64,000 bases of DNA, taken from NCBI GenBank assembly GCA_026712715.1, contig JAPOPW010000009.1:62001-126000 (forward strand), given 5' to 3'. Below the pieces are notes generated by a model. That model did no database searches. It was not told the origin of the DNA and saw only the letters and a program-made list of their open reading frames with translations. Positions 13,726 through 16,723 of this stretch are shown piece by piece. The DNA is from Immundisolibacterales bacterium (GTDB taxonomy: Bacteria; Pseudomonadota; Gammaproteobacteria; HK1). The translations under genes were made by a program, and so were the position numbers. Numbering within the stretch: position 1 is the stretch's first letter; every line of letters starts with the position of its first letter.

Positions 13726-14631
13726 CTAGGCGACGAGCTCGTAGCCGGCGGCGGTAACCGCCTCGGCGAGGGCCGCACGGCCCATCGCCGAGTACTCGAG
13801 CGGGTTGGCCTTGGCCGGGTCCTGCTCGGCCTCGACGAGGAACCAGCCCTCGTAGCCGATCGCGATCAGCTCGCGGGCGACCGCGCCGAAATCGATCATC
13901 CCGTCGCCGGGGACGGTGAACACGCCGGCGAGGACGGCGTCCAGGAACGAGTCCCGCTCCCAGTCGATGCCCGCGAGCACGTCGGCCCGCACGTCCTTGC
14001 AGTGGACGTGACGGATGCGCGAGCCCCAGCGGGCGATCGCCCCGATCGGATCCCCGCCCGAGAACTGGAGGTGCCCGGTGTCGAAGAGAAGACCCGTCTC
14101 GTCGGCGGTGCACGCGAGGAAGCGATCGACGTCGTCCTCGAACTGGACGACGGCACCCATGTGGTGGTGGTAGGCGAAGGGGGCGCCGCAGGTCTCGTTG
14201 ACCCAAGCCGCGAACTCGTCCATACGGCGGCCATAGTCCCGCATCTCGGCATCCGTCAGCGACGGACGGGCGGCGAGCGGCACGTCTCGCCGGCCCTGAA
14301 TCGTGTTCGAGGTCTCGCCGTACACGAACGCGAAGGCGCCAAGCTCCCGGAAGAGGTCGACCTGCGCCTTCGCGCGTCGCTTCTCCTCTTCGACCGAGTT
14401 CACGAGCAGCTCGCCCGAATACCACCCGGACACGAGCGCGAGCCCGTGCCCTTCGAGGATCGGCCCCAGCTCTTGCGCCGACAGCGGGTACTTTCCGCCC
14501 GTCTCCGTGCCCGAATAGCCCGCCTGCGCCATCTCCGAAAGGCAGGTGTCGAGCGGCGTATCGCCGCCGAGCTCCGGGAGATCGTCGTTCGACCACGCGA
14601 TGGGGGCGACGCCGAGTCGTGCTTTCTTCAT
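13726..14631 (-). CDS. iolE: Myo-inosose-2 dehydratase-like TIM-barrel protein
   Basis: 301-residue xylose isomerase-like TIM barrel. The N-terminal block IAWSNDDLPELGGDTPLDTC is diagnostic of IolE, which dehydrates 2-keto-myo-inositol in inositol catabolism. Metal-binding residues are suggested by the YHHHMGAVVQ, LLFDTGHLQF, HVHCKD and VEAEQDP segments. ATG at 14631. It is convergent with ubiI (22-base gap) and lies downstream of iolD on the same strand, separated by the 232-base fold-back element described separately. The rest of the inositol pathway (iolG, iolB, iolC, iolA) is not in this window. Confidence 0.87.
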   Translation of the reverse strand: MKKARLGVAPIAWSNDDLPELGGDTPLDTCLSEMAQAGYSGTETGGKYPLSAQELGPILEGHGLALVSGWYSGELLVNSVEEEKRRAKAQVDLFRELGAFAFVYGETSNTIQGRRDVPLAARPSLTDAEMRDYGRRMDEFAAWVNETCGAPFAYHHHMGAVVQFEDDVDRFLACTADETGLLFDTGHLQFSGGDPIGAIARWGSRIRHVHCKDVRADVLAGIDWERDSFLDAVLAGVFTVPGDGMIDFGAVARELIAIGYEGWFLVEAEQDPAKANPLEYSAMGRAALAEAVTAAGYELVA

Positions 14632-14639
14632 GTTTCTGG

Positions 14640-14871
14640 CCCGAGAATCTCACCAGCTTTCGTCGCTTACCCGAAAAATTCTGCGAATTTTTCGGGCTTG
14701 GGCGCCGAGACGCCGCTGTGGCGGGGCGCACGGACCGAAAGAGCGCTACGCGCTGGCTGAAGGCGTAGCCTACACTACCGCTTCGCGCTGTCGAAGCGGC
14801 TTGAGGGAGTACGCCCCGTCACAGCGAGTGGATCGGCGTCCGCTAGCCAAGAAGCTGGCGAGATTCTCGGG
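14640..14871. repeat. Fold-back (inverted-repeat) intergenic element
   Basis: This element fills the whole gap between iolE and iolD. Its outer 20 bases form a terminal inverted repeat matching at 19 of 20 positions (CCCGAGAATCTCACCAGCTT at 14640-14659 against 14852-14871). A second arm pair (14711-14731 with 14809-14827) matches at 16 of 19. Inside are smaller stems: a perfect 12-bp hairpin at 14670-14696 and CCGCTTCG/CGAAGCGG near 14778-14798. Three of the four mismatches in the two outer arms become G.U pairs on the minus strand, the strand that reads iolD-iolE. It may be a MITE/REP-like repeat or a structured RNA; no second full copy was seen in the window. Confidence 0.6.
14670..14696. 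terminator. Perfect 12-bp hairpin upstream of iolE
   Basis: CCCGAAAAATTC / GAATTTTTCGGG with a TGC loop, lying 39 bases upstream of the iolE start and within the fold-back element. It has the same design (A/T run inside a GC-closed stem, 3-base loop) as the hairpin at 2920-2944. A terminator this close to a start codon would be unusual, so attenuation, an operator or mRNA protection are also possible. Confidence 0.5.
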
Positions 14872-14872
14872 C

Positions 14873-16723
14873 TTAGACTCCGATCCGCTGGCGGGTCCGG
14901 CCCGCCTCGTGCTCCGCGCGCGCGTCGCGGACCTCTTCGCGAGCGCTGGTTTCCGGCACCCCGAGATCCCACCAGGCATCCCCGGGGGTCCACTCGTTCT
15001 CGGCGGTCTCGAGCGCGATCACGGTGGTCCGATCGGTCTCCCGCGCCCATTCGAGGGCGTCCTCGAGGTCCGCGATGCTCGCCACCCGCCGGGTCTCGGC
15101 GCCCATCGCACGGGCGTGGGCCGCGAAATCGACCGCGAACGGCTCCCTCGCGATGCGGCTGTCGCGGATGAAGTTGTTGAACGAAGCCCCGCCCTTGAAG
15201 TTCTGGAGACGATTGATGACCGCGAAGCCGCCGTTGTCGCACACGACGACGATCAGCTTGTGTCCGGTGAGAACCGAGGAGTAGATGTCCGAGTTCATCA
15301 TGAGGTACGAGCCGTCCCCGACCAGCGCGTAGACCGCCCGGGTCGGATCGGCCATCGCCGCCCCCCACGCGCCCGCGATCTCGTACCCCATGCAGGAGTA
15401 TCCGAACTCGAGATCGAACGTGCCGGGCGACTTTACCCTCCAGATTTTCATGAGCTCTCCGGGAAGCCCCCCCGCCGCGGTGAGGACGAGGTCGCGCTCG
15501 CCGGCCGCGCGGTTGACCGCACCGATGACCTGGGCGTAGCTCGGAATCGGGGCGTTGCTCGGACGGATGGCAGCCTCGACGGTGCGGTTCCACTGCGCAT
15601 ACTCGCGGCCCGCCCGCGCGGTCCACTCGGAATCGGCCGACCAGCCGCCGAGGGCCTCGTCGAGCTCGGCGATTCCCTCGCGGGCGTCTCCCACGACCGG
15701 GGCCGCCCGGTGCTTGACGGCATCGAAGCGGGCGGCGTTGACGGCGACGAAACGGGCGTCCGGAGAAAACACGCTCCAGGACCCGGTCGTGAAGTCCTGG
15801 AGGCGGGTGCCGATCGCAAGGACCACGTCCGCCTCCGCGGCGAGCGCGTTGGCCGAGGAGGAGCCGATGACCCCGACCGGACCCACGTTCACGGGATCGT
15901 CATGCACCAGCATCCCGCGGCCCGCCACGGTTTCCGCGACGGGGATCCCGCGTGCCGCGGCGAAGGCGGCGAGCTCCGCTTCGGCGAGCGAGTAGCGGAC
16001 TCCGCCGCCGGCGATTACGAGCGGGCGCCGCGCAGAGGTCAGGAGCGCGGCCGCGGCCGCAACCTGGTCGCGGTCCGGGCGCGGGCGCGCAATGACGTGG
16101 ACGGCCGGCGCGAAGAACTCTTCCGGGTAGTCGAAGGCGAGCTCCTGGGTATCCTGGCAGAGCCCGATGAAGGCCGGGCCGCAGTCGGCCGGATCGAGCA
16201 TGACCGCGGTCGCCTGCGGCAACGAGGAGACGATCTGCTCGGGGTGGGTGATGCGGTCCCAGTAGCGGGAGACGGAGCGGAACGCATCGTTGACCGAGGT
16301 GCCGGGGGAAGCGAAGTGCTCGACCTGCTGGAGGACCGGATCAGGCCGGCGATTGACGAACACGTCGCCCGACAGGATCAGGATCGGCAGGCGGTTCGCG
16401 TGTCCGGTGGCGGCGGCGGTCACCATGTTGGTGGCGCCGGGGCCGATGGACGACGTCGCGACCATGATCTGGCGGCGCCGGCGTGCCCGGGTGAAGCCGA
16501 GCGCGGCGAGGGCCATGGACTGCTCGTTCTGGCCGCGCCAGGTGGGCAGCTCGTCGCGAACCGCCTCGAGCGCCTCCGCAAGACAGGTCACGTTCCCGTG
16601 ACCGAAGATTCCGAACACGCCCGGGAACAGCCGCTCGCGTCCCGTCTCCGTCTTCACCCACTGATTGCAGAGGTAGCGCACGAGCGCCTGGGCCATCGTG
16701 AGTCGTATCGTCCTCGCTGCCAT
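14873..16723 (-). CDS. iolD: TPP enzyme, 3D-(3,5/4)-trihydroxycyclohexane-1,2-dione hydrolase (IolD)
   Basis: Thiamine-diphosphate enzyme of 616 residues that hydrolytically opens the inositol-derived ring; it acts directly after IolE. The N-terminal Pyr domain has GIFGHGNVTCLAEAL and the NEQSMALAALGF segment with the activating Glu. IGPGATNMVTAAATGHANRL follows, and the C-terminal PP domain has GDGSYLMMNSDIYS ending in the Asn/Gly of VVVCDNGGFAVI. The length and the PVLQQVEHFASPGTSVNDAF block favour IolD over acetolactate synthase. It lies 75 bases downstream of the MaoC-like gene on the same strand. Confidence 0.88.
   Translation of the reverse strand: MAARTIRLTMAQALVRYLCNQWVKTETGRERLFPGVFGIFGHGNVTCLAEALEAVRDELPTWRGQNEQSMALAALGFTRARRRRQIMVATSSIGPGATNMVTAAATGHANRLPILILSGDVFVNRRPDPVLQQVEHFASPGTSVNDAFRSVSRYWDRITHPEQIVSSLPQATAVMLDPADCGPAFIGLCQDTQELAFDYPEEFFAPAVHVIARPRPDRDQVAAAAALLTSARRPLVIAGGGVRYSLAEAELAAFAAARGIPVAETVAGRGMLVHDDPVNVGPVGVIGSSSANALAAEADVVLAIGTRLQDFTTGSWSVFSPDARFVAVNAARFDAVKHRAAPVVGDAREGIAELDEALGGWSADSEWTARAGREYAQWNRTVEAAIRPSNAPIPSYAQVIGAVNRAAGERDLVLTAAGGLPGELMKIWRVKSPGTFDLEFGYSCMGYEIAGAWGAAMADPTRAVYALVGDGSYLMMNSDIYSSVLTGHKLIVVVCDNGGFAVINRLQNFKGGASFNNFIRDSRIAREPFAVDFAAHARAMGAETRRVASIADLEDALEWARETDRTTVIALETAENEWTPGDAWWDLGVPETSAREEVRDARAEHEAGRTRQRIGV

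Follow-up and report, generated by a model that had tools for sequence, protein, structure and literature searches.

The analyzed DNA stretch (the window) spans 64 kb with a G+C content of 68.6%. A 232-base fold-back element is located at positions 14640-14871, in the gap between the minus-strand genes iolE and iolD, and the coordinates proposed in an earlier note on this DNA were confirmed. The features of the locus, with the basis of each assignment, are as follows:

14640..14871, plus strand (the orientation of the family): whole fold-back element, delimited by its arms, the family copies, and the empty site in genomes G001 and G002; 14639-14872 including one further G-C pair.
14640..14659, plus strand: left terminal inverted repeat, the 5' arm of helix P1, CCCGAGAATCTCACCAGCTT; arm matching.
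14852..14871, plus strand: right terminal inverted repeat, the 3' arm of helix P1; arm matching.
14636..14639, no strand: left flanking tetranucleotide CTGG (family consensus CTAG); sequence and family flanks.
14872..14875, no strand: right flanking tetranucleotide CTTA, containing the iolD stop codon (TAA on the minus strand); sequence, family flanks, and empty-site comparison.
14670..14696, plus strand: optional extra hairpin CCCGAAAAATTC-TGC-GAATTTTTCGGG, missing from the short form of the family; perfect arms and family copies.
14700..14710, plus strand: 5' arm of helix P3 (partner at about 14832-14841); predicted plus-strand fold, helix 3 of the family alignment.
14714..14731, plus strand: 5' arm of helix P4; arm matching, covarying helix in the family.
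14809..14826, plus strand: 3' arm of helix P4; arm matching, covarying helix in the family.
14790..14813, plus strand: the most conserved motif, GTCGAAGCGGCTTGAGGGAGTACG, exact in Gammaproteobacteria and Acidobacteriota; motif scan of the genome collection.
14691..14847, plus strand: match to covariance model R1 of the family core (82.9 bits, E = 8.5e-15; G000, contig C77, 76691-76847).
13726..14631, minus strand: iolE-like gene with ATG at 14631; ORF, orthologues of 86-87% identity.
14873..16723, minus strand: iolD-like gene with the stop codon at 14873-14875; ORF, orthologous gene ends in the congeners.

The element tightly fills the gap, as had been described, leaving 8 nt to the iolE start and adjoining the iolD stop codon. 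Its outer arms (14640-14659 and 14852-14871) match at 19 of 20 positions, or at 95% over 21 nt when the next G-C pair is counted. The inner arms (14714-14731 and 14809-14826) are 89% complementary, and the inner hairpin (14670-14681 and 14685-14696) is a perfect 12 bp helix; the arms and the hairpin reported earlier were all reproduced. When up to three mismatches were allowed, the outer 20-mer was found in the 64 kb at these two arms only, with 0.01 matches expected. RNA folding of the element yielded -141.2 kcal/mol (z -9.4) for the minus strand and -152.0 kcal/mol (z -9.5) for the plus strand, values not equaled by any shuffled sequence. Chance complementarity, for which the GC-rich composition of the window could be cited, is opposed by these z values, by the low expectation for arm matches, and by the related dispersed copies and empty sites found in this study; it can be considered negligible.

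Empty sites were read directly from the fetched loci of the two congeners. In both G001 and G002, iolD terminates in TAG and is followed four bases later by the iolE start, with no element between them; because of this empty site, the element of the window is an insertion. Sites L003 and L011 are also empty in both congeners, which have a single stop-codon TAG versus the CTAG-element-CTAG arrangement in the window's genome. A single-TAG empty site was observed at L010, most clearly in G002, and at L002 the genome G002 has a single TAG with the sequence diverging beyond. At site L017 (1434-1755; L319), G001 is empty and the stop codon is occupied in G002 by a copy belonging to another subfamily, so this site was hit twice by independent insertions. 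Many neighboring genes end exactly three bases inside CTAG, and the element often supplies their TAG stop. The family is mobile, and its targets are CTAG-like tetranucleotides at stop codons.

Of 110 copies, 29 had identical flanking 4-mers, against an expectation of 13.3 and a maximum of 25 over 2000 shuffles; the identical flanks include the non-palindromic pairs CCAG/CCAG, CTGG/CTGG, and TTAG/TTAG as well as TTAA/TTAA and CTAA/CTAA. In many copies the two flanks differ, often with CTAG on one side and a variant on the other, and identical flanks are confined to 26% of all copies. Target-site duplication, a check suggested in the earlier note, was hence recovered at the level of the family, where identical flanks exceed chance, but not in the window copy with its unequal CTGG and CTTA. 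One may speculate that unequal flanks arise when donor overhangs are transferred in a piggyBac-like manner.

The basic family form is about 180 nt long and consists of CTAG, a terminal repeat of about 20 nt starting with CCCG, a core, the complementary repeat, and a second CTAG, with ends of the type CTAG-CCCGCATTTCTCACCAG. The size ranges from about 180 to 300 nt; longer copies, including that of the window, have extra hairpins at fixed places, and copies cut down to little beyond the terminal repeats also exist. Sequence searches of the window's genome and its relatives recovered numerous copies, some partial and some full. The exact 24-base core motif matched 76 stretches of the species-level genome collection, carried by MAGs of Gammaproteobacteria and Vicinamibacteria/Acidobacteria and by the isolate Pseudothauera nasutitermitis. 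With the core covariance model, at least 21 copies were detected in the window's genome, at least 38, 15, and 40 in relatives, at least 12 in a genome of another family in the same class, and at least 26, 15, and 34 in three Acidobacteriota genomes, all counts being lower bounds from 150 candidates scored per genome. No copy was detected by the model in 397 other Pseudomonadota genomes. Plasmids, phages, and IMG/VR viral contigs gave no match to the element, and no Rfam 15 family scored above its gathering threshold for the window or for 13 diverse copies. Single-copy finds in MAGs of Gemmatimonadota and Alphaproteobacteria may be binning errors and were given no weight. The distribution is patchy yet crosses phyla, at least two. 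In G025, from another family of the class, a divergent subtype was observed (L109-L113, L415-L418), in which nearly all stem letters are changed and the architecture is kept.

Being short, non-coding, bounded by terminal inverted repeats, and dispersed in multiple copies, the elements have the defining characters of MITEs. The earlier designation as a MITE-type insert is borne out by the dispersed copies, empty sites, and flanking direct repeats; small REPs of the classical kind do not fit the element. The 232-base palindrome belongs to a family of small mobile elements that had not been recorded before; the literature searched contained no description of this family.

The consensus fold derived from 33 diverse copies comprised 52 pairs, 40 of which showed compensatory changes (23 of 32 in the interior without the terminal repeats), and 92.2% of its cells were paired. 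The double-change cells numbered 251, compared with 77.8 in shuffled alignments and no more than 43 in slid controls; for the interior, the values were 135 versus 41.8 shuffled. A conserved secondary structure with compensatory changes, as expected of a structured RNA, is present. Of 80 copies, 76 folded better as the plus strand, with a mean difference of 17.6 kcal/mol, and the same held for almost every copy within each genome sampled; RNAalifold gave -51.4 versus -23.0 for the reverse complement. The ratio of G.T to A.C was 227:53 across all pairs and 186:37 among interior pairs, or about 5:1 on one strand, and conservation was 0.82 in unpaired versus 0.75 in paired columns. The fold on one strand of the element is conserved, covaries, and is closed by the terminal repeats; the interior is not filler. 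The earlier proposal that mismatches become G.U pairs on the minus strand holds for a few arm mismatches, but the whole element and the family fold better as the plus strand of the window. Of the checks suggested earlier for the minus-strand RNA, folding gave a strong minus-strand z value and covariation was encountered across the family, but the conserved fold lies on the plus strand.

These data bear on the view that the element is an ordinary MITE with an incidental interior, in which a palindromic ancestor, common descent, and arm-to-arm palindrome correction mimic covariation. Palindrome correction can yield paired double changes, and internally deleted copies do persist. According to a review, MITEs commonly fold strongly (PMC10969869). 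Such processes are strand-symmetric, yet G.T exceeds A.C about fivefold in the interior and the plus strand is the better one in every genome sampled. Moreover, conservation is highest in the unpaired motifs, also when Gammaproteobacteria are compared with Acidobacteriota, and the G025 subtype retains the architecture with different stem letters. We regard an incidental interior as improbable.

To locate selection, private changes (found in one copy only) and shared changes (found in several) were compared within clusters of similar copies. Private changes comprised 21 G.T, 25 A.C, and 35 others, and their rates were alike at paired (0.0081) and unpaired (0.0101) sites; shared changes comprised 174 G.T, 23 A.C, and 301 compensatory. 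As shared cells count inherited changes repeatedly, the changes were recounted as distinct events, giving ratios of kept to broken pairs of 55:27 for shared and 39:69 for private changes (p = 3.6e-5). This contrast held at all four clustering thresholds (0.0014 to 0.026 at the other three), and the shared-versus-private contrast in G.T:A.C, taken as distinct events, was significant at one of the four. The counts support private changes that look neutral and shared changes that keep the fold. They also support, short of proof, neutral decay of resident copies and maintenance of the fold in spreading lineages, and the fold seems to matter for propagation rather than for the resident copy. MITEs are usually viewed as hollow relics with constraint on their ends only; in this family, conservation is strongest in the interior, in a strand-specific fold, and constraint appears in the copies that spread, not in those that sit.

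A host-beneficial cis element would act as a structured 5' region, terminator, or processing site for the iolE or iolDE mRNA. The exact position in the iolD-iolE gap, so close to the iolE start, would suit this, and Correia and ERIC elements are known to alter mRNA processing (PMC10969869). On the other side, two congeners have the same gene pair without the element, the conserved strand is antisense to iolD and iolE, the resident copies appear to decay neutrally, and the family has no orientation preference relative to neighboring genes (++ 11, -- 12, +- 13, and -+ 8, with crude ORF-based gene calls). A cis-acting role is very improbable. The structured RNA controlling iolE translation, offered as an alternative in the earlier note, is unsupported because of the antisense strand and the lack of orientation preference; the element-free congeners and the neutral appearance of private changes in resident copies also speak against it. 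The element is most likely a passive insert separating formerly adjacent genes, and by separating iolE from iolD it may weaken their translational coupling.

The mobilizing enzyme was sought among known transposase families. The genome G002 contains a multicopy IS1380-family element of 1631 bp (L277, L284, L289, L304, and L294) with ends CCCGGATATTGCATGAA and flanks CTAG/CTAG, CTAA/CTAA, and CTAC/CTAC. The fold-back elements have in common with it the flanks and the repeat start CCCG[G/C]A.AT.T (CCCG-ATnT). Because the agreement of the terminal repeats is limited to the outer 10 bp or so and the flanks, the fold-back family is filed as IS1380-like and not as a member. IS1380 is a prokaryotic relative of piggyBac, whose relatives use TTAA, with the variants CTAA and TTAG, and have CCC-type ends (PMC10813416). 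Among the carriers, IS1380 genes were present in G000, G001 (weak), G002, G004 (fragment), G013, G015, and G055, and none was found in G025, G056, and G057, all to be read with regard to the frequent loss of multicopy IS contigs from MAGs. Terminal-repeat patterns in six genomes matched only elements, deletion derivatives, or unrelated neighbors, and no autonomous element with exactly the same ends was among them. In G013 (L266, 2144-3275), an AbiEi-like antitoxin gene with a truncated partner lies beside a stray terminal-repeat match. The contig ends of G055 (L240-L247) carry a contig-breaking repeat, CTAGCCCGGATATTTCACCGG, which is intermediate in sequence and whose body is missing from the assembly; it is possibly the autonomous element or another MITE. 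Two other candidates were rejected: the IS701 transposase (PF13546) had no match over the cut-off in nine carriers, and the DDE_Tnp_1 candidates checked had no matching ends.

Judging by sequence, an IS1380/piggyBac-type MITE mobilized by an IS1380-type enzyme is the most likely assignment. The reading we favor, and consider rather probable, is a non-autonomous MITE, probably of the IS1380/piggyBac type, with a strand-specific structured RNA-like core and passive at iolD-iolE. An IS1380-type transposase acting in trans would move the element into CTAG-like tetranucleotides at stop codons, and the folded strand, more likely RNA than ssDNA, would be needed by the copies that spread. If so, a small transposon otherwise resembling an IS1380/piggyBac relative is moved with the participation of folded RNA or ssDNA. 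Several findings stand against this reading: no autonomous element was found whose inner terminal repeat agrees; G056 and G057 carry at least 15-34 copies, yet no IS1380 gene was found in them; the terminal repeats covary freely between subfamilies, which is odd for a transposase reading their sequence; only 26% of the flank pairs are identical, although the copy bodies have few private changes; and the G.T:A.C contrast by distinct events reaches significance at one clustering threshold only. More tentatively, the family may represent a selfish structured nucleic acid that crosses phyla and decays once inserted, a mobile element relying for its spread on a folded single strand, RNA or ssDNA, that is conserved and closed by the element's terminal repeats. 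Such dependence on the fold for spread, with decay after insertion, would be comparable in logic to SINE-type master copies.

The fold may also be a substrate in ssDNA form, as in a giant REP-like element, where a Y1 (RAYT/IS200-like) transposase would recognize folded ssDNA and cleave at CTAG at the hairpin foot. Selection on one folded strand during propagation, terminal repeats conserved in pairing rather than in sequence, and often unequal flanks would fit such an element. GTAG REPs likewise supply TAG stops and contain G.T pairs, and GTAG is where RAYT cuts the single-stranded DNA of REPs (PMC3733652). The five identical non-CTAG flank pairs listed above point instead to target duplication, the IS1380 elements of the congener have common ends and flanks with the family, and 16 copies in the complete genome G002 showed no leading/lagging-strand bias (7 versus 9, a small sample). 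We consider a Y1-type substrate rather unlikely. RNA is slightly preferred over ssDNA because of this absence of replication-strand bias and the flank duplications.

Among known systems, IS1380-family insertion sequences and MITEs resemble the fold-back family in the 4 bp CTAG-type flanks, the CCCG-ATnT repeat start, the short non-coding body, the dispersed copies, and the empty sites. They differ in that no autonomous partner sharing the inner repeat was found for the fold-back elements, whose terminal repeats vary by paired double changes and whose interior has a conserved strand-specific fold; the literature searched described no such fold in a MITE, nor a MITE with a covarying strand-specific fold selected during propagation. 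GTAG REP/RAYT systems are likewise palindromic and intergenic, with G.T stem pairs and a tetranucleotide ending in TAG that supplies stops. However, REPs are 20-40 nt long versus about 180-300 nt and have one-sided GTAG versus CTAG on both sides, and the fold-back elements possess a multi-helix core and evidence of target duplication. Prokaryotic MITEs are known whose transcripts fold, and some give sRNAs; among such small inverted-repeat elements, Correia elements and Coxiella QMITEs (a source of sRNAs) can alter or become RNAs (PMC10969869, PMC5896051), but their ends are unrelated and the present family spans at least two phyla. The available parts of the sources on these elements report no covarying strand-specific fold (PMC10969869, PMC5896051). 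Rfam-curated RNAs of mobile elements are similar as structured RNA-like sequences spread by mobile DNA and different in that the fold-back element matches no Rfam 15 family.

Contig-breaking repeats in several environmental MAGs are accounted for by this family, which also extends many gene ends with RNA-like sequence. Inside the copies L003, L004, L017, and L018, a few fixed positions hold inserted perfect hairpins of 20-40 nt, giving the impression of smaller palindromes nesting in the loops or expanding there.
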